Shown: positions 5,732-14,121 of the stretch, piece after piece
Position numbering within the stretch: the first letter of the stretch is position 1
Layout of the letters: each line of letters begins with the position of its first letter
Source: Maribacter thermophilus
GTDB lineage: Bacteria > Bacteroidota > Bacteroidia > Flavobacteriales > Flavobacteriaceae
Assembly (NCBI RefSeq): GCF_001020565.1
Contig: NZ_LDAS01000001.1
Coordinates: 3,062,520 to 3,126,519, forward strand
Direction: 5' to 3'
DNA length: 64,000 nt
Notes under the pieces: model-generated
Database searches by the model: none
What the model was told of the DNA's origin: nothing
What the model saw: only the letters and a program-made list of their open reading frames with translations
Program-made: the position numbers and the translations under genes

Positions 5732-8140
5732 GTGAGGCTATTACTCCTATTTTTTATCATTGCTATAGGATTTTTTCAAGAAGCGATGGGTCAGTCTTTT
5801 CAGCTCTCCGGAACTATTAAGGACGAGTCAGGAACTCCTATAGCGTTTGCTTCGGCTTTTCTGCTTCATCCCGAGGACGGTACCATGGTAAACGGTTCTT
5901 CGGCCGATGAGAACGGAATGTTTATCATTGAAAATATTCAACCCGGGCTTTATTTGCTAAAGGCCAGTTATATAGGGCAAGTGTCTAAAGACCTTCCTTT
6001 GGATATTGATAGGGATATAAAAATAGGGGCCTTGGTGATACCACAACAGGTGGAAGAGCTGGATGAGGTCGTTGTTTTCAGTAATAGGCCCAAGGTAGAG
6101 CGTAAGGTAGACCGTTTGGTGTTCAATGTAGAAAATTCTGTGCTATCACAGAGCAGTTCTTGGGATATCTTAAGTCAGACACCCGGTGTAATTACCATTA
6201 GAGATGAGTTTCAAATAAGGAATCAGCCCGCCGTTGTTTACATAAACGACCGTAAGGTTCAGCTGTCTTCCGAAGAAATAAGAAACCTGTTGGAAAACTA
6301 CCAAGGTGAGAACATAAAATCTATAGAAGTAATTAACAATCCGCCGGCCAGGTATGATGCAGAGGGCGGTGCCGTACTGAACATTGTTACCAGCAAAAAC
6401 ATTTCTCTTGGCTATAAGGGCAATGTAAACACCAATTATACACAAGGTGTTTTTCCTAAGTATAATTTTGGCACTTCCCATTTTTATAAAACAAAAAAAC
6501 TAAATCTTAACGCCAGTTATTCATATGCTCCACGAAAAGACTTCAAAGACGTAAGAAACGAAACCAATTTTATAAACGATTCTGGCATTTTTTCTAGGTG
6601 GGATACCGATTTTGATAAGATCAACAGATTTAAGACCCATAATGCGGGTATTGTGGTAGACTATGAGTTTGATGATAGAAATGAAATAAATTTCACATCC
6701 AATGCACAGATATCCCCGGACAGGAAATATGACAATTTTCAGTATACCTCTATGGAAAATGGGCAAGGGGTGTTAGATTCTACCTCAACAACCACCAGTA
6801 TGCTGGACGAGGACAAAAACAATATTTCTGGCGACCTTACCTTTAAACATAGTTTTAATGAAAATGGTTCTATTCGTATTAATGGCCATTATACCAATTT
6901 TGATCAGGCGAGAACACAAGATGCCAGATCCGATTATTTTAGACCGGATGGGTCATTCATACGCGATTACGCGTTTTTTACAGACGAAAAGCAAGACATT
7001 GAAATAATTACCGCACAAGTAGACTATAATAGTCAGTTGGGCGAAATTGGTGTTGAGGCCGGTCTTAAGACATCTCTGATAAATTCGCAAAGCCAGCTTA
7101 GTTTTTATACCCAGAACAATGGAAGGGAATACGTTTCTGCCCTATCGGACGATTATCTGTACGATGAAGATGTATATGCCGGTTACATCAGTTTTTCAAA
7201 AGATTGGGAAAAATGGAGCATAAAGGCAGGTCTTAGGGCAGAGCAGACAGAAAGCTCAGGAAATTCCCTAGTGTTGTCAAAGGTTAATAATTTGGACTAT
7301 TTTGAACTCTTCCCCACCTTTTATTTGCTTCACTCCATAAACGAGCACCATAGTTTGTCCTTCGATTATTCAAGAAAAATAAAGCGGCCCAGATATGAGG
7401 ATCTAAACCCATTTAGAACCTTTATAAACGAAAATATTTTTTATGAGGGAAACCCCTATTTGTTGCCCAGTTTCAGTAACAATTTTAATCTGAACTATAC
7501 CCTGAACCAAGAATACTTCTTTGACTTTTATTACCGGGACAATGGCAATTATATTTCTACATTGTCATTTCAGGACAACGATAACCAAGTGCTAATAGAC
7601 ATGTCTCAGAATGTCTTGGAAAGCACCTCTTATGGCTTTGATTTTAATTATGGAAAATCCATCACCAATTATTGGTATCTATACAGTTATATTTCCATTT
7701 TTCATGAAGAGGAGACTTTCTTGGCCTTGGAGAGCGATGAGATATCGGCCAAAAACGATTTCAATGGTTTTTACGTAGATCTCACCAATTATATAACTCT
7801 GTCGCAAGACGGTACGTTCAAGGGCGAGTTAGGAGTGGCTTACCTATCCGGTTATTTGGTAGGTTCCTATATACAGGCGGAATCCACGAACCTTACCCTT
7901 GGTCTACAAAAATCTTTATGGAACAGAAGAGCCCAGATCAGTTTGTCGGTTAACGATATTTTAGGCAAGGCCAATCCATGGAACACATCTAAATACCTGA
8001 ATCAGAATAACATGTATAGGCCGGTTGAGGAAACCCAAAATTTTAGAATAGGGTTTACCTATAATTTTGGAAACTTTAGGTTGGATGACAACAAACGAGA
8101 AATAGAGAAGGAAGAAAGGGACCGATTGGGGTCAGAATAA
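5732..8140 (+). CDS. Outer-membrane beta-barrel family protein with carboxypeptidase-regulatory-like domain
   Basis: 802 residues with a signal peptide (cleavage after about residue 20, 'EAMGQ/SFQ'). A CarboxypepD_reg-like domain spans about 22-105 ('LSGTIKDESGTPIAFASAFLL'). A plug-like stretch ('LDEVVVFSNRPKVERKVDRLVFNVENS...TPGVI') follows, then a long barrel ending in 'FRIGFTYNFGNF'. This resembles the OMP_b-brl_3 relatives of TonB-dependent receptors. No cargo can be assigned. The start is GTG, directly after an in-frame TAA; the next ATG would destroy the signal peptide. It is followed 95 bp later by a paralogue. Confidence 0.85.
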   Translation: MRLLLLFFIIAIGFFQEAMGQSFQLSGTIKDESGTPIAFASAFLLHPEDGTMVNGSSADENGMFIIENIQPGLYLLKASYIGQVSKDLPLDIDRDIKIGALVIPQQVEELDEVVVFSNRPKVERKVDRLVFNVENSVLSQSSSWDILSQTPGVITIRDEFQIRNQPAVVYINDRKVQLSSEEIRNLLENYQGENIKSIEVINNPPARYDAEGGAVLNIVTSKNISLGYKGNVNTNYTQGVFPKYNFGTSHFYKTKKLNLNASYSYAPRKDFKDVRNETNFINDSGIFSRWDTDFDKINRFKTHNAGIVVDYEFDDRNEINFTSNAQISPDRKYDNFQYTSMENGQGVLDSTSTTTSMLDEDKNNISGDLTFKHSFNENGSIRINGHYTNFDQARTQDARSDYFRPDGSFIRDYAFFTDEKQDIEIITAQVDYNSQLGEIGVEAGLKTSLINSQSQLSFYTQNNGREYVSALSDDYLYDEDVYAGYISFSKDWEKWSIKAGLRAEQTESSGNSLVLSKVNNLDYFELFPTFYLLHSINEHHSLSFDYSRKIKRPRYEDLNPFRTFINENIFYEGNPYLLPSFSNNFNLNYTLNQEYFFDFYYRDNGNYISTLSFQDNDNQVLIDMSQNVLESTSYGFDFNYGKSITNYWYLYSYISIFHEEETFLALESDEISAKNDFNGFYVDLTNYITLSQDGTFKGELGVAYLSGYLVGSYIQAESTNLTLGLQKSLWNRRAQISLSVNDILGKANPWNTSKYLNQNNMYRPVEETQNFRIGFTYNFGNFRLDDNKREIEKEERDRLGSE

Positions 8141-8235: not shown

Positions 8236-10641
8236 ATGAACAGGAATTTTAGTTTATTTTTAATTTTTTCTCTGCTGTTTTTTTCTGCCAAGGCCCAGGA
8301 ATATAGTATTAAAGGAAGGGTGTTGGATTCTAAGGAGCAGCCTTTGGTTTTTGCGAATGTCTTACTTCAATCTACAGACACTGTTTTGCTGGCGGGTACG
8401 GCCACGAACGAAGATGGTTTTTTTGAGTTGAACAATGTTCAAAAAGGAACCTATTTATTGTCGGCAAGTTACTTGGACAACGTTTCTGAAATAAAAAAAA
8501 TATCGGTCACTACCGATATAGATGTGGATAGATTGATAATAGAACAGACCGAAGAGGTTTTAGATGAGGTAGTGGTGAGCTACAAAAAACCCACAATAGA
8601 GCAAAAAGCGGACCGTGTGGTTTTTAATATAGAGAACACCTCCCTTTCCGATAGTGATATTTGGAGTGTGATAAAGAGAACGCCGGGCGTAATTATCGTA
8701 AACGACAAGATAAGCATCAAGGGCAGTACCAATATTGGGGTAATGATTAATGGTAAAAAGGTAAATATTCCCCAAGAAGATATTATTAACCTACTATCGG
8801 GGAGTTCTGCAAGTAATGTAGAGGCGATAGAGGTGGTACTTAATCCGCCGGCAAAATATAGTGCCGAAGGCGGAATGTTGTTGGATATAAAAATGAAAAA
8901 GAACCTGATCGCCGGTTATAATGGATCGGTATACAACAGATATACCCAGGGAGTTTTTCCAAAACACATGTTGGGCACCGACCATTTTTTTAAGGGAGAA
9001 AAGACCGATTTTTCCTTAACCTACAGTTTTAGGAACGATAAAAGATTGAACCGGTATACGGATATCACCAATTTTTTTGAGGACAATGCCGTCGATGAGA
9101 TTTGGACCGCCGAGCAGAGTACGGTTTCTAAGGGCAAGCACCATAATGTAAATGCCTTTTTTGATTATCGGATAAATGATAGAAACAACCTTAGTATATC
9201 TACGATAAACTCTTTTTCAACACCGGCCAATAGGTATATAACCTCACAAACGCTAATTGCCGACCCTAACGGAGCATTGAGTTCTAGCTTTTCTACCGAC
9301 AACAATTCCGATTATGAAGTCTATAACACCTCTTATTATTTGGATTGGACACATAAATTAAAACGAAAAGGGGCCGAAATTTCATTTAGCAACCATTTTA
9401 CCTATTATGATTATGATAGGGGACAGGAAATAAACACCGATTTTTATGATTTGAACGGAACCGTTACCGGATCCAATGACTTTACCACGAATTCTGGACA
9501 AAAAACGGCACTTTATACCTTTCAATTGGACTATGCTACACCGATTAAAAAAGCATCAAAATTAGAAACAGGTTTGCGCTATGCCGGCATTAATTCAGAA
9601 TCAAGGGTGTTGCAAGAAGGGTTTGATCGTAACCAACCAGGAATAGACCCTACGGAAGAAGGCTTGTTTTCGTATGACGAAAGTATTATGGCGGCCTATG
9701 TAAGTTTAAACAACAATTGGGAAAAATGGCAACTTAATATGGGTCTAAGGTCAGAATATACCGAAACAAAGGGTAATTTGGCAACCAACCTTGCCCCTAT
9801 TAAAAACTCATATTTAGAATTTTTTCCATCTATATCAGTACAGCATGAATTAAGTGAGAAAAACGATTTAAACCTTAAATATTACCGTAGAATTACAAGA
9901 CCTAGATATGACGATTTAAATCCGTTTCAATATTTTCAGAGCAACAATGCCGTTGTTGAAGGAAACCCTTACCTAAAACCAACGACCAGAAATTATATTT
10001 CATTTGGCTATACCTACGACAAATCTTATACGGTAGAACTGTTTTATTTGGTCAAAAAAGATGATTTTTTTGAGCAAGTGGTTCAAGATAACGAAAGTAA
10101 CCTGCTGAGGTTCGTAAGTACCAATTTAGAGTCTAACCAAAGCTATGGTATAGATTTTAGGGTAAACAAAAGATGGACGAATTTCTGGGACACCTATGTT
10201 TTATTAAGTTACTTCTATAAGGAAAATGGTTTTACAGACCTGGATACCGGAAATCTGTTAGAGAATAATATCATGACCGCGTATTTTGTTGCCAATAACT
10301 ATTTTACCCTTTTAAAAGATAAATCGCTTTTTGCGGATATTACTTTTAGGTATTTGGCACCAACGGTCTATGGCAATTCTGAAAGAGAGTCTACCAGTGA
10401 GCTAGGGCTATCTTTTCGAAAGACGATATGGAACAAAAAGGCTAGTATCTCTTTAGGGGTGGAAGATATTTTCAATGACGGTAATATTTTTTCTACCCGA
10501 AACTATCTAAACCAGAACAACAGTACATTCTCTAGAAGCGAAAAAAGACTTTTTGTCTTTGGTTTTAGGTATAAGTTCGGCAACACGAAAATTCGTGACA
10601 ACCAAAAGAGAAAGGGTACAGAGGAGGATAGCAGAATATAG
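8236..10641 (+). CDS. Outer-membrane beta-barrel family protein (paralogue of upstream gene)
   Basis: 801 residues with the same architecture as the preceding gene: signal peptide ('LLFFSAKAQ/EYS'), CarboxypepD_reg-like domain ('IKGRVLDSKEQPLVFANVLL'), plug-like 'LDEVVVSYKKPTIEQKADRVVFNIENTS...RTPGVIIV', and a barrel with 'YRRITRPRYDDLNPFQYF' and a final 'FGFRYKFGN'. The neighbour has the matching 'YSRKIKRPRYEDLNPFRTF', so the pair is a tandem duplication, now clearly divergent. Probably outer membrane; substrate unknown. No SusD-like partner is present. ATG start. Confidence 0.85.
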   Translation: MNRNFSLFLIFSLLFFSAKAQEYSIKGRVLDSKEQPLVFANVLLQSTDTVLLAGTATNEDGFFELNNVQKGTYLLSASYLDNVSEIKKISVTTDIDVDRLIIEQTEEVLDEVVVSYKKPTIEQKADRVVFNIENTSLSDSDIWSVIKRTPGVIIVNDKISIKGSTNIGVMINGKKVNIPQEDIINLLSGSSASNVEAIEVVLNPPAKYSAEGGMLLDIKMKKNLIAGYNGSVYNRYTQGVFPKHMLGTDHFFKGEKTDFSLTYSFRNDKRLNRYTDITNFFEDNAVDEIWTAEQSTVSKGKHHNVNAFFDYRINDRNNLSISTINSFSTPANRYITSQTLIADPNGALSSSFSTDNNSDYEVYNTSYYLDWTHKLKRKGAEISFSNHFTYYDYDRGQEINTDFYDLNGTVTGSNDFTTNSGQKTALYTFQLDYATPIKKASKLETGLRYAGINSESRVLQEGFDRNQPGIDPTEEGLFSYDESIMAAYVSLNNNWEKWQLNMGLRSEYTETKGNLATNLAPIKNSYLEFFPSISVQHELSEKNDLNLKYYRRITRPRYDDLNPFQYFQSNNAVVEGNPYLKPTTRNYISFGYTYDKSYTVELFYLVKKDDFFEQVVQDNESNLLRFVSTNLESNQSYGIDFRVNKRWTNFWDTYVLLSYFYKENGFTDLDTGNLLENNIMTAYFVANNYFTLLKDKSLFADITFRYLAPTVYGNSERESTSELGLSFRKTIWNKKASISLGVEDIFNDGNIFSTRNYLNQNNSTFSRSEKRLFVFGFRYKFGNTKIRDNQKRKGTEEDSRI

Positions 10642-10643
10642 GG

Positions 10644-10859
10644 CTATGGCATACCGATCATAATAGTGCCGCAAACACCTAAGCTAATAAGCAAGTAGAC
10701 TCCGGCAAGGATAACGAATATCTTACCGGCCTTCTTTTTATGTTTTAACAATAAGACCACCCCGATGATAAGAAAAAGAATCGCGGGGCCGAACATGATT
10801 AAAAAAAGGAAGATGAACAGGCCGTCCATACTTCCAACTTCTAAGGGTAAATGGATCAT
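10644..10859 (-). CDS. Small two-helix membrane protein, last gene of the Lgt-like/radical SAM operon
   Basis: 71 residues with two hydrophobic helices (about 13-38 and 46-68) separated by a basic loop 'LKHKKKAGK'. Its ATG overlaps the stop of the upstream radical SAM gene (ATGA), so the two are translationally coupled. I do not recognise the family. The coupling suggests a membrane anchor or partner in the same pathway. Confidence 0.75.
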   Translation of the reverse strand: MIHLPLEVGSMDGLFIFLFLIMFGPAILFLIIGVVLLLKHKKKAGKIFVILAGVYLLISLGVCGTIMIGMP

Positions 10860-12250
10860 GGTATTTCTTTTTGTAGTTCTTTCAATCGGTTAATTTTATC
10901 ATCCCTATAAAAAAGGTTCATCGTTTCAAACGGGATTATTTTATTGTCTTTGTTCACGATATGGACACATGATTTTTTGATTGCCCTCACATCAAAATTG
11001 TGGGCGTCTACGAACTGCATTATGATGATACGAAAAAGATTGTCGTACCCCAATTCGGGGGCATCTATTTCGGGTAGGCAGCACATGATGCTTTGTAGGT
11101 TTTCCGATGCTTTCTCTACCGAGTTACCGGTACTAAAAAGGGCAATCATTTTTCCGTGCAGTTGCTCGTCTTGTTCGTAGATGATGGTATTTTTTCCTTC
11201 GTTCAATAGATCATCGGGGTTGATATATCGGGTCAAAGGGCTTACTTCATCATCTATCTTTAAGGCATAGGCCATGACCAGGGCATCGGGGTTGCAGGGT
11301 ACCGGTATTAGATCGTCGGGTTCAAAAATAGGGGACTGCTCCAGTATTTTTCTACGCACCTCTGTTAGGGTAATTCTATTTTCATCGACATCAAAATTCT
11401 CTAAACGCCCGGCGATCTGTGTAGGTTGAAAGGTAACTCCCCGCACGCATTTTTGACGAAGGGCAAAGTCTATGGTCTCACCCATTTCATGGTCGTTAAG
11501 GCCTTTTTGAAGCGTAACCACCAAGGTTGTGGAAAGGTTCAACCTATTTAGGTGCTCCAGTGCCTTTAAACGAATGTCGGCCAAATCTGCCCCTCGTAGG
11601 GTTTGTAAAACCTCGTTGTTCAAGGAATCGAACTGCAGGTAAATCTCAAAATCTGGCATATAGGTCGCCAGTTTCTCGGCAAATCCAAAGTCCTTCGCAA
11701 TTTTTATACCGTTGGTGTTCACCATCAAATGGCGAATGGGCAAAGTTTTACAGTAGTCCAGAATTTCAAAGAAATCGGGGTGTAGGGTGGGTTCGCCACC
11801 GCTGAGCTGTACCACATCGGGCTCGCCTTCGTTCTTTACGATGGCATCCAACATCGATTTTACCTCTTCCAATGTACGGTGCCTGCCATAGGTGGGCGAT
11901 GACCCGGCATAGCAGGTAGGGCAGGTAAGGTTGCAACGGTCTGTTAGCTCCACCACGGTTAGGCATGAGTGCTGTTCGTGATCGGGGCACAGGCCACAAT
12001 CGTAGGGGCAACCGTAATGTGTTTTCGTATTAAAGGTTTTCGGGTACTCCGATGCTTTGTTGTAGTTTCGTATGTTTTTGTAATATTCGATATCGTCGGC
12101 AATAAGCACTTTTGAGGTTCCGTGCTCAGGGCAACGTTTTAGCATATATACCTTTTCATTTTCAAAAATAATCTTGGCATCCACCCTTCTTAAACACTCA
12201 GGGCAAAGGCTTAGTGTAAAATCATAATACACGTAATTTTTTTCGGGCAT
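10856..12250 (-). CDS. Radical SAM protein of the MJ0619/tetraether-synthase (Tes)-like family
   Basis: 464 residues. The SAM-cluster motif is CX3CX2C at Cys106, Cys110 and Cys113 ('DRCNLTCPTCYAG'), followed by 'LSGGEPTLHP' (about 149-157). Ahead of it lie extra cysteines: CPEC at 16/19, 'CPEHG' at 40, and 'GCPYDCGLCPDHEQHSC' (81, 85, 88, 96). This arrangement is the hallmark I know from MJ0619 and archaeal tetraether lipid synthases, which carry several metal sites and join lipid chains by C-C bonds. More cysteines occur near the C-terminus ('IMCCLPE', 'KSCVHIV'). The gene overlaps the Lgt-like gene upstream by 29 bp and is coupled to the small membrane protein downstream. A lipid substrate is inferred from family and context, not shown. 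Confidence 0.8.
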   Translation of the reverse strand: MPEKNYVYYDFTLSLCPECLRRVDAKIIFENEKVYMLKRCPEHGTSKVLIADDIEYYKNIRNYNKASEYPKTFNTKTHYGCPYDCGLCPDHEQHSCLTVVELTDRCNLTCPTCYAGSSPTYGRHRTLEEVKSMLDAIVKNEGEPDVVQLSGGEPTLHPDFFEILDYCKTLPIRHLMVNTNGIKIAKDFGFAEKLATYMPDFEIYLQFDSLNNEVLQTLRGADLADIRLKALEHLNRLNLSTTLVVTLQKGLNDHEMGETIDFALRQKCVRGVTFQPTQIAGRLENFDVDENRITLTEVRRKILEQSPIFEPDDLIPVPCNPDALVMAYALKIDDEVSPLTRYINPDDLLNEGKNTIIYEQDEQLHGKMIALFSTGNSVEKASENLQSIMCCLPEIDAPELGYDNLFRIIIMQFVDAHNFDVRAIKKSCVHIVNKDNKIIPFETMNLFYRDDKINRLKELQKEIP

Positions 12251-12983
12251 AGGACAGTCCTTGACGGATGAATTTAAAATAGTAAAGAAGACAAATTAAA
12301 CATAATATTTGAATGCTACTGAGTCCTGCGATGAAAAACGTATTGGGTTTTAGGAACTCTATAAAGAATCTAAAAGTAAAGTAGCTGACCATAAAAAACT
12401 TAAAATAGGCCCCGCTTTCAAGGGGAACGAATTTCTTTTGGCCATACTTCATGGTGATGAACAAGAAAACCATAAAAACAACCTCATATAGGGCAATGGG
12501 GTGTCTTGCAACACCGTCCCCCAGATTCATCCCCATAAAGAAAGTAGTGGGTTTTCCGTAGGTAAATTCTTTTACACCCAATAAAAAACAACCGATACGA
12601 CCGATGATGATTCCTAAAATAATGGGTAGGGTAAACAGGTCGCCCGATGACTGTTTTTCGCCTATTATCTTTTTGGCGAGTTCCACTCCTAGGAGACCAC
12701 CGAACAAACCGCCCATAATGGTCTTGTTGTTCAAGATGGCCAACCAGCCTTGTTGCCAGTGCAATACGGGGTTTTCGAAAAAGGCGACCAAGCGTGAAAA
12801 TAACAAGGCCCCAAAAATGGCCCCTATAATTATGGACAGCCGATTGTTCGATGATATGGGATCATTGCTTCTTTTCCGTAAGAAAACGTAATACCTAAAA
12901 GCGATGAAAAAAGCCAGGTATTCCAACACTAGGTGTACATTCACCTTGGTGCCGAACAGTATAGGCTCGTAGGGAATAGTCAT
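12222..12983 (-). CDS. Prolipoprotein diacylglyceryl transferase (Lgt)-like membrane protein lacking the catalytic His motif
   Basis: 253 residues with about seven membrane helices. Lgt-like signatures are present in order: 'MGGLFGGLLG' (equivalent to HGGLIG), 'GRIGCFLLG' (GRIGNFING), 'RHPIALYE' (RHPSQLYE) and 'FRFFIEFLKP' (RFxxEFxR). The His of the HGG motif, needed by true Lgt, is replaced by Met, so ordinary lipoprotein maturation is unlikely. It is the first gene of the operon with the Tes-like radical SAM gene. A role in handling a phosphatidylglycerol-type lipid is inference. Confidence 0.75.
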   Translation of the reverse strand: MTIPYEPILFGTKVNVHLVLEYLAFFIAFRYYVFLRKRSNDPISSNNRLSIIIGAIFGALLFSRLVAFFENPVLHWQQGWLAILNNKTIMGGLFGGLLGVELAKKIIGEKQSSGDLFTLPIILGIIIGRIGCFLLGVKEFTYGKPTTFFMGMNLGDGVARHPIALYEVVFMVFLFITMKYGQKKFVPLESGAYFKFFMVSYFTFRFFIEFLKPNTFFIAGLSSIQILCLICLLYYFKFIRQGLSYARKKLRVL

Positions 12984-13011: not shown

Positions 13012-14121
13012 CTACTCTTGCCACTCGGCTATGAACAAATTGGTATCCCTATTGCCCCCATTGTTGCGATTGCTCGAAAAGGCCAAATATTTGCCATCGT
13101 TTGAAAACACGGGAAAGGCATCAAAGGTTTTACCGTGGGTAACGCGCTCCAGGTTCTTACCATCGATATCGATTAGGTATAGGTTAAACGGAAACCCTTT
13201 CTCGGCCTCAAAATTACTTGAGAACAATATTTTTTTTCCGGATGGATGAAAGAACGGACTCCAATTGGCATTGCCCAAGAAGGTGAGTTGCCTTAGGTTG
13301 CTTCCGTCCGCATCGCATATAAAAAGCTCCATTTCGGTAGGTTCTACCAGGCCTTCTGCCAATAGGTCCTTATATTTTTTTATGGCTTCGGGCGTTTTTG
13401 GGCGAGATGCCCTAAAGATCAATTGGGTTCCATCGGGAGAAAAGAAGGCACCACCGTCGTAACCCAGCTCGTTGGTGATCTGTTTCACGTCCGAACCGTC
13501 CAAATTCATGGTATACAGCTCTAGGTCACCACTTCTATCAGAGGTAAAGACAATTTTATCGCCTTTGGGCGAGACCGTAGCCTCGGCATCGTAACCCGGC
13601 TCATCGGTCAATTGGGCCGTAATATTTCCTTCGAGGTCCGAAACAAAAATATCGAAGGTATCGTAAACGGGCCATACATAGTTTCCATTTTTACGCAGGG
13701 GAACCTCGGGGCACTCCTTATCCGCCAAATGGGTAGAGCCGTAGACAAAATGTTTGTTATCGGGTAAAAAATAGGCGCAGGTCGTACGGCCAAAACCAGT
13801 ACTTATCATAGGGGGCCTAATGCTATCGTTGAAGCTTTGGTCCACATTCATCAAGAACATCTGGTCGCAGTTTAAACCCCAAGCCTCGTTGTTCGATTGA
13901 AAGACCAATTGTTTATCGTCCCAGCTCCAATACGCTTCGGCATTGTCTCCCCCAAAGGTAATCTGACGGATGCTCTTAAAATGTTTTTCCTCGGGGTAGA
14001 TCAGGGTATCGGCACCGGCCATAATAGAGGTTGATTCTTCTTTTTGGGGTGCGGTATTCTTGGGTTCCGACTTGCAGCTTCCCAATAAACATAGGCTTCC
14101 TAAAATAAATAAAAGTCTCAT
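13012..14121 (-). CDS. TolB-like beta-propeller (PD40) lipoprotein
   Basis: 369 residues with an SPII signal peptide and lipobox 'LLGSC' (Cys16). The rest is repeated PD40/WD40-like blades: 'AYWSWDDKQLVFQSN', 'AEATVSPKGDKIVFTSDRSGDLELYTMNLDGSDVKQIT', 'GGAFFSPDGTQLIFRASR', 'WSPFFHPSGKKILFSSN' and 'FPVFSNDGKYLAFSSNRN'. Probably an envelope lipoprotein acting as a propeller scaffold; no enzyme motif is visible. Transcribed divergently from the M28 peptidase gene, with a very short gap between them. Confidence 0.82.
   Translation of the reverse strand: MRLLFILGSLCLLGSCKSEPKNTAPQKEESTSIMAGADTLIYPEEKHFKSIRQITFGGDNAEAYWSWDDKQLVFQSNNEAWGLNCDQMFLMNVDQSFNDSIRPPMISTGFGRTTCAYFLPDNKHFVYGSTHLADKECPEVPLRKNGNYVWPVYDTFDIFVSDLEGNITAQLTDEPGYDAEATVSPKGDKIVFTSDRSGDLELYTMNLDGSDVKQITNELGYDGGAFFSPDGTQLIFRASRPKTPEAIKKYKDLLAEGLVEPTEMELFICDADGSNLRQLTFLGNANWSPFFHPSGKKILFSSNFEAEKGFPFNLYLIDIDGKNLERVTHGKTFDAFPVFSNDGKYLAFSSNRNNGGNRDTNLFIAEWQE

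Follow-up and report, generated by a model that had tools for sequence, protein, structure and literature searches.

The locus described here lies in a 64,000-nucleotide stretch of the Maribacter thermophilus genome (NCBI RefSeq assembly GCF_001020565.1, contig NZ_LDAS01000001.1, positions 3,062,520 to 3,126,519 of the forward strand), the whole of which is referred to below as the window. The genome is 4.05 Mb in size and its nearest named relatives are Maribacter and Pseudozobellia (Flavobacteriaceae). Three overlapping minus-strand genes in the window encode a paralogue of the lipid-handling enzyme Lgt, a radical S-adenosylmethionine (SAM) protein of the group that contains the tetraether synthase Tes and TrsS, and a mini-protein of 71 amino acids (aa) with two membrane helices. 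The Lgt paralogue and radical SAM genes overlap by 29 nt, the radical SAM and mini-protein genes by 4 nt. A preliminary description, made from the sequence alone, had reported the three genes and their motifs, and both these and the coordinates given for them were borne out exactly. The features, in window positions, are as follows.

12222..12983, minus strand: Lgt paralogue, the first gene; 253 aa, Lgt fold, PF01790.
12714..12716, minus strand: Met90 codon of the Lgt paralogue, at the position of His103 in E. coli Lgt.
12588..12590, minus strand: Cys132 codon of the Lgt paralogue, at the position of Asn146 in E. coli Lgt; Cys in 32 of 32 paralogues.
10856..12250, minus strand: radical SAM protein of the Tes/TrsS group, the second gene; 464 aa, PF04055 and PF23545.
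11912..11935, minus strand: radical SAM cluster motif CX3CX2C (C106-C113); all three Cys present in 19 of 19 aligned rows.
10644..10859, minus strand: two-helix mini-protein, the third gene; 71 aa, K-rich loop, a single Cys in G-V-C-G near the C-terminus.
10671..10673, minus strand: Cys63 codon of the mini-protein, a candidate lipid acceptor.

The three genes form a strong functional unit. Close relatives were represented by the best 80 of 584 matches, those 80 having a radical SAM protein at least 80% identical. Each of the 80 loci has an Lgt paralogue match and one or more small-protein matches; the Lgt gene lies 1.6 to 4 kb off in three of them (L083, L099 and L108). In one unselected draw of 395 Bacteroidota genomes (in the GTDB sense), the radical SAM family is present in 34, of which 33 were found at E 1e-60 with the TrsS model, a search that also matches the control genomes of M. 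jannaschii, S. acidocaldarius and M. acetivorans, and one (G193) with a divergent query. The Lgt paralogue is present in 33 genomes, 32 at E 9e-30 or better and G193 at 1.8e-17, its radical SAM neighbour there having been read directly; weaker Lgt matches, from 8.7e-13 upward, are presumably ordinary Lgts and were left out of the count. Both enzymes occur together in 32 of the 395 genomes, the radical SAM gene alone in two (G164 and G396) and the Lgt paralogue alone in one (G115). Fisher's exact test on the first-cut sets (31/2/1/361 for both, radical SAM only, Lgt only and neither) gave p = 1.5e-42, a nominal value because the genomes are related. The two genes lie within about 1.1 kb of each other at 29 of 33 survey places; G132 and G366 have both genes, on separate contigs. 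The co-occurrence that the preliminary description had proposed to survey is thus seen in Bacteroidota, and also in Actinobacterial plasmids. In G115 (L196), the sole such case among the 395, the Lgt paralogue has no mini-protein nearby and no radical SAM relative was found in the genome.

That the genes are ordinary neighbours without shared function is very improbable, since it is contradicted by the co-occurrence in 32 genomes, two of them with the genes unlinked, and on Actinobacterial plasmids. The region does hold neighbours found in some genomes only, as a gene for a TolB-like β-propeller illustrates (window 13012-14121, beginning with a lipobox-like segment and lying 28 bp upstream of the Lgt gene on the same strand). 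It lies within 0.5 kb upstream in only 14 of the 80 relatives' loci, and a match is found farther downstream in 13 and nowhere within the fetched stretch in 53. We therefore rejected it as a fourth part of the module.

At superfamily level the first gene product is Lgt-like, as had been proposed. It scores 76.9 bits with Pfam LGT (PF01790, gathering threshold 24.9), and only 41.2 bits with the TIGR00544 lgt model, against an equivalog cut-off of 118.9. Its AlphaFold model, with a predicted local distance difference test (pLDDT) score of 92.8, has E. coli Lgt (5azb) as its sole PDB match at E ≤ 0.001 (E 3.1e-6, probability 1.00, template-modelling (TM) score 0.60). The likeness to the E. coli enzyme extends to R143 and R239, both kept in 32 of 32 aligned paralogues, and to Y235 and the HPxx(L/I)YE segment, shared by the aligned rows. 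Other features differ: the segment between the fourth transmembrane helix and HPxxLYE is much shorter than the E. coli head region, and N146 is replaced by Cys in all 32 rows. The position of Y26 is His in 17 of 20 aligned paralogues and Tyr in three. The ‘HGGL’ position is Met90 in the window protein (MGGLFGG), and across the 32 rows the residue equivalent to H103 is M, V, L, A or T, never His.

The preliminary description had drawn attention to this Met in place of the His of an HGGLIG-type motif. The observation is true, yet less telling than it seemed. In E. coli Lgt, Y26, H103, R143, N146 and R239 are described as essential (PMC13251419); in the same source H103 is reported as replaced by Y, W or F in other Lgt lineages, and the authors doubt that H103 is the base. 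Since published Lgts vary at H103, the absent His is no proof of lost or new activity, and in these alignments the His-less state is real but not decisive. A separate canonical Lgt elsewhere in the genome (185.5 bits) keeps the His in a pairwise alignment, being out of register at H103 in the multiple alignment. The paralogue would thus be free to act on another substrate.

These substitutions also bear on a reading in which the paralogue lacks transferase activity and serves as a subunit that binds lipid or delivers it to the radical SAM enzyme, with the mini-protein Cys used for a disulfide or helix packing. We consider this unlikely. The changes at Y26, H103 and N146 speak for it, as does the second mycobacterial Lgt with Y26H and N146C (MSMEG_5408), which carries the same substitutions as the window paralogue and is presumed weak (PMC13251419). 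Yet the aligned paralogues retain R143, Y235, R239 and HPxx(L/I)YE, and, beside the variation at H103, N146C is reported to recur in distant Lgts (PMC13251419). A plasmid copy in M. branderi lies near a radical SAM gene.

The second gene product matches Radical_SAM (PF04055, 95.7 bits) and the HMPTM zinc ribbon (PF23545, 73.8 bits), and contains the motifs CPEC, CPEHG and CPYDCGLCPDH. By sequence, MJ0619 is the nearest solved structure (7tol, E 3.5e-70). The AlphaFold model (mean pLDDT 80.7, weak at residues 369-394) aligns to Tes (7tom) with E 3.1e-36 and TM-scores of 0.80/0.75 over 500 columns at 29% identity. Indeed, Tes (7tom and 7tol) provides the only full-length PDB matches of the model, MoaA and peptide maturases (about 1e-9) falling far behind. 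The window protein resembles Tes, also termed GDGT-MAS (MJ0619), in overall fold (TM 0.80 by query), in a rubredoxin-type CX2C..CX2H site (C16, C19, C40 and H43), in an N-terminal CX3CX2C motif with His (C81, C85, C88 and H91), in the radical SAM CX3CX2C, and in equivalents of Gln268 and Arg275, Tes residues being numbered as in the MJ0619 structure paper (PMC9433317). Two Actinobacterial members (L164 and L165) are without the N-terminal cluster Cys. The older annotation of MJ0619 as a pterin methyltransferase, which the structure paper calls incorrect (PMC9433317), was set aside.

Membership of Tes itself, to which the preliminary description had likened the protein by these motifs, is not supported. 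The window protein scores 292.7 bits, against an equivalog cut-off of 450 for the Tes model NF045702. Tyr459 of Tes, reported as completely conserved in 1000 archaeal homologues (PMC9433317), is replaced by Ile in 16 and by Val in one of 17 rows that come with the Lgt paralogue (the Lgt group), whereas both Tes-like rows have Tyr. Furthermore, all 17 Lgt-group rows have an added Cys (VPC, C319 in the window protein), and none of the 17 has the Cys that both Tes-like rows show at position 442, E, D or S standing there instead. Taken together, the gain of C319, the loss of the Cys at position 442 and the replacement of Tyr459 suggest that the C-terminal cluster of the Lgt-group proteins is probably ligated differently from that of Tes. 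Met439 of Tes is described as a labile ligand, and the M439A variant as still active (PMC9433317). In the window protein Met411 aligns with it pairwise, and the column is Met in 14 and Thr in three Lgt-group rows; its register is doubtful because the two Tes-like rows themselves have D and E there.

The best-scoring NCBIfam model is TrsS (NF045646), at 331.2 bits and below its cut-off of 490, which no protein in the 395 survey genomes exceeds. In contrast to the TrsS (seleno)protein family, the window open reading frame (ORF) has no in-frame UGA. Among the scanned adjacent window proteins there is no DVU_1556-type methyltransferase, a neighbour that is not part of a published TrsS definition and that was seen at two plasmid loci only (L162 and L163), whose radical SAM proteins, at 335.5 and 352.5 bits, are themselves below the TrsS cut-off. 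Across the 32 survey genomes, the Lgt-accompanied radical SAM proteins score 149.5-305.4 bits on the Tes model and 193.6-368.3 on the TrsS model, none above either cut-off. Identification of the window protein as Tes or TrsS was therefore rejected on cut-offs and residues; its modelled fold is Tes-like, but it belongs to a subfamily of its own. The membrane-spanning lipid synthase Mss and the GMGT synthase Gms are also radical SAM enzymes that act on lipid tails, in bacteria or archaea, and in the descriptions available they are set apart from Tes.

These comparisons bear on a second reading, the one closest to the preliminary description. Here the product of the radical SAM enzyme would be a phospholipid, crosslinked or spanning the membrane, present in bulk or as a minor component; the Lgt paralogue would work in the same pathway, and the mini-protein would do no more than act as scaffold or anchor. 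The Tes fold, the N-terminal metal motifs, the handling of phospholipids by Lgt and the proposal that bacterial Tes homologues make membrane-spanning lipids (PMC8941075) are all in line with it. The score far below the Tes cut-off and the missing Tyr459 are not, and a near-invariant G-x-C in the mini-protein is not needed by a scaffold. In addition, the same-phylum proteins near or above the Tes cut-off come without the Lgt paralogue: the two Lgt-less survey proteins score 493.7 (L144, G164) and 441.9 bits (L150, G396) against the cut-off of 450, and these two are candidates for real membrane-spanning lipid synthesis. For the window module we regard this reading as fairly unlikely.

The third gene product is, as had been noticed, a two-helix membrane protein; a conserved G-x-C that makes it a candidate lipid acceptor had been missed. 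A Pfam scan of the 71-aa sequence returned nothing above threshold. A profile search found 122 family members, a number that leaves out the duplicates L111-L140 and retains at least one other, as L159 seems to be the same contig as L097. A Cys lies within the last 22 aa in 116 of these, with Gly at -2 in all 116 and Gly directly after it in 108; one further hit has the motif in a longer reading frame. The residue at -1 is I in 65, V in 28, L in 8, T in 8, Y in 2, M in 2, A in 2 and F in 1 (n = 116). Among the 108 G-x-C-G members, the last K/R stands 17 residues from the Cys in 101, and no charged residue follows the Cys in 97. This distance is close to that in lipobox-matching ORFs of the same flanks (10-16, mostly 14; n = 33). 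The 80 loci (the best of 584 matches) contain one profile hit in 49 cases and two to four in 31; a number of the hits counted have no Cys, and others (L056 and L057) lie upstream of the Lgt gene.

Divergent small proteins keep the pattern (..LFGACMVG in L143, ..NGMCNAV in L145, ..SGGLCTG in L164 and ..SGGMCIF in L199), some with A or S at -1. In a scan of 18 module loci, with L155 left out and L146 having no near ORF, [GSA]xC occurs near the end of 20 of 23 small two-helix ORFs beside the module enzymes, compared with 4 of 47 and 18 of 105 farther off; the pattern was chosen after seeing the data, and the far ORFs were counted as frames, whether or not they are genes. The 20 include one DUF4395 ORF (L149), and the three misses are the ICMT-like ORF of L149, an ORF in L154 ending ..SGFVCGGM and an unrelated ORF in L165, where the mini-protein sits in a 371-aa frame above the length limit of the scan. 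The same scan gave 0 of 1 near ORFs at four Lgt-less loci (L144, L150, L162 and L163) and 0 of 1 in three Lgt-only stretches (L196-L198).

Under the positive-inside rule, the mini-protein loop would lie in the cytoplasm, placing the Cys at the outer side of the cytoplasmic membrane, which is the working side of Lgt. It is this predicted position, a conserved G-x-C near the outer end of the last helix, that makes the mini-protein a candidate lipid acceptor.

A small product gene adjoining a radical SAM gene, often in several copies (two to four hits in 31 of 80 loci), also recalls the pathways of ribosomally synthesised and post-translationally modified peptides. The mini-protein would then be the substrate of the radical SAM enzyme, which would change a side chain or the backbone, and the Lgt paralogue would lipidate or export it; SPASM-type maturases share the radical SAM core. 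We hold this to be quite unlikely, as the fold comparison points most strongly to Tes, an enzyme of lipids (E 3e-36), with peptide maturases only at about 1e-9, and the Cys is predicted to lie across the membrane from the radical SAM enzyme.

Beyond Bacteroidota, our view is that given by plasmid records. A tblastn search returned ten plasmid records with a radical SAM relative, four of them Actinobacterial. The Actinobacterial Lgt paralogue is found in three records, from Mycobacterium branderi, M. avium and Nonomuraea, all three with a radical SAM match, and in the M. branderi and Nonomuraea loci, which were read, one or more small proteins, the Lgt paralogue and the radical SAM gene stand together. 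A module copy of the Actinobacterial kind also occurs in the Bacteroidota genome G193 (L199), with the small protein between both enzymes, which suggests transfer of the module between phyla.

When 25 radical SAM proteins are placed in a tree, a single branch (94/89, below the starred level) separates the 21 Lgt-group members, including two with an unlinked Lgt gene, from the rest. These 21 form three lineages, one of which includes the Actinobacterial plasmids, with long-branch warnings. The two enzymes agree in their pairwise distances (Spearman correlation 0.89, 190 pairs), a result that shared history alone could cause.

Starting from the computed gene linkage, folds, conserved residues and conserved Cys, we infer a topology, a substrate for each enzyme and a set of reactions. 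The Lgt paralogue would bind a phospholipid and move its diacylglyceryl part onto the thiol of the mini-protein's G-x-C Cys, on the outer face of the cytoplasmic membrane. On the cytoplasmic side, the radical SAM enzyme would act on an alkyl tail of the lipid by Tes-like radical chemistry, its target being either the donor lipid before transfer or the tails borne by the mini-protein. This would leave a small membrane protein uncleaved and anchored through an unusual lipid, the tails of which may be crosslinked. We favour this division of work, lipidation of the mini-protein by the Lgt paralogue and tail modification by the radical SAM enzyme, tentatively and at somewhat less than an even chance. 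The co-occurrence, including two genomes with the genes unlinked, the three radical SAM lineages and the Actinobacterial plasmids argue for it, as do the Lgt fold with R143 and R239 kept, the near-invariant G-x-C and the Tes-like fold. With this, the idea in the preliminary description of a modified lipid or lipid-protein link is plausible.

Several points weigh against lipidation of the mini-protein coupled to tail modification. The window protein departs from E. coli Lgt at Y26, H103 and N146, three residues reported as essential to the E. coli enzyme (PMC13251419). What the radical SAM enzyme acts on is a guess from its modelled fold. The mini-protein has no canonical lipobox (G, A or S before the Cys), the -1 residue being I or V in 93 of 116, and the spacing from K/R to Cys is constant only among close family members, ranging from 16 to 26 in 16 divergent ones. 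Five of the 122 profile hits lack any Cys, further copies being present at the same loci. Neither G132 nor G366 showed a mini-protein beside the Lgt gene, and G132 showed none beside its radical SAM gene. The conserved Cys could instead serve disulfides or helix packing. Finally, the module is dispensable: the radical SAM gene is found in 27 of 36 same-genus genomes, the window's own included, so that the module is patchy within the genus, and some genomes without it are rated 99-100% complete. A membrane-spanning lipopeptide, in which the diacylglyceryl tails of the lipid-anchored mini-protein are linked covalently to another lipid through radical C-C (or C-S) coupling, is in our estimate an unlikely outcome.

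Some further observations concern the surroundings of these genes. Two tandem plus-strand genes resembling TonB-dependent receptors (window 5732-8140 and 8236-10641) converge on the operon, the second assigned by scan (OMP_b-brl_3, 314 bits) and the first by eye. In one relative's locus (L088, 1-4250), the Lgt paralogue match lies in pieces around a long ORF with the look of a carboxypeptidase-regulatory or receptor protein, perhaps an interrupted gene. At three loci (L143, 9290-10409; L149, 4781-5855; L157, about 9250-10400), an ICMT/PEMT-like methyltransferase and a DUF4395 protein are encoded between both enzymes, as assigned by Pfam for L143 and L149 and by eye for L157. Seen at these loci only, they were rejected as core parts; such insertions fit a lipid or thiol modification pathway and decide nothing. 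In the fourth Actinobacterial plasmid record, Mycolicibacterium vanbaalenii, and in that of the haloarchaeon Halorarius (L162, 5971-8339, and L163, 4971-7134), a radical SAM gene of the TrsS/Tes group adjoins a DVU_1556-like methyltransferase gene, with no Lgt there. These methyltransferases score 136.3 and 130.1 bits on the DVU_1556-type model, under its cut-off of 155. A search of viral contigs returned no match.

Bacterial Tes homologues have been listed as possible makers of membrane-spanning lipids, their function being given as unconfirmed in the available parts of those accounts (PMC8941075, PMC11868695). Searches of open-licence papers, at the level of titles and the beginnings of abstracts, gave no description of the three-gene combination. 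Each part is a variant of a known family, and together they seem not to have been described; the mini-protein family with its G-x-C is new here. What emerges is a bacterial group split off from Tes by a curated cut-off and by Tyr459, and accompanied by an Lgt paralogue and a G-x-C mini-protein. Lipid-biomarker work could be misled if the radical SAM proteins of this Lgt group were taken as tetraether potential. At the same time, the group gains a concrete, testable candidate substrate, namely one Cys in a protein of about 70 residues. If the Lgt paralogue does lipidate this Cys and the radical SAM enzyme modifies the lipid tail, the module would represent a new kind of protein lipidation, and a membrane-spanning lipopeptide system, if true, would unite lipoprotein lipidation with tetraether-type tail coupling, in both Bacteroidota and Actinomycetota.

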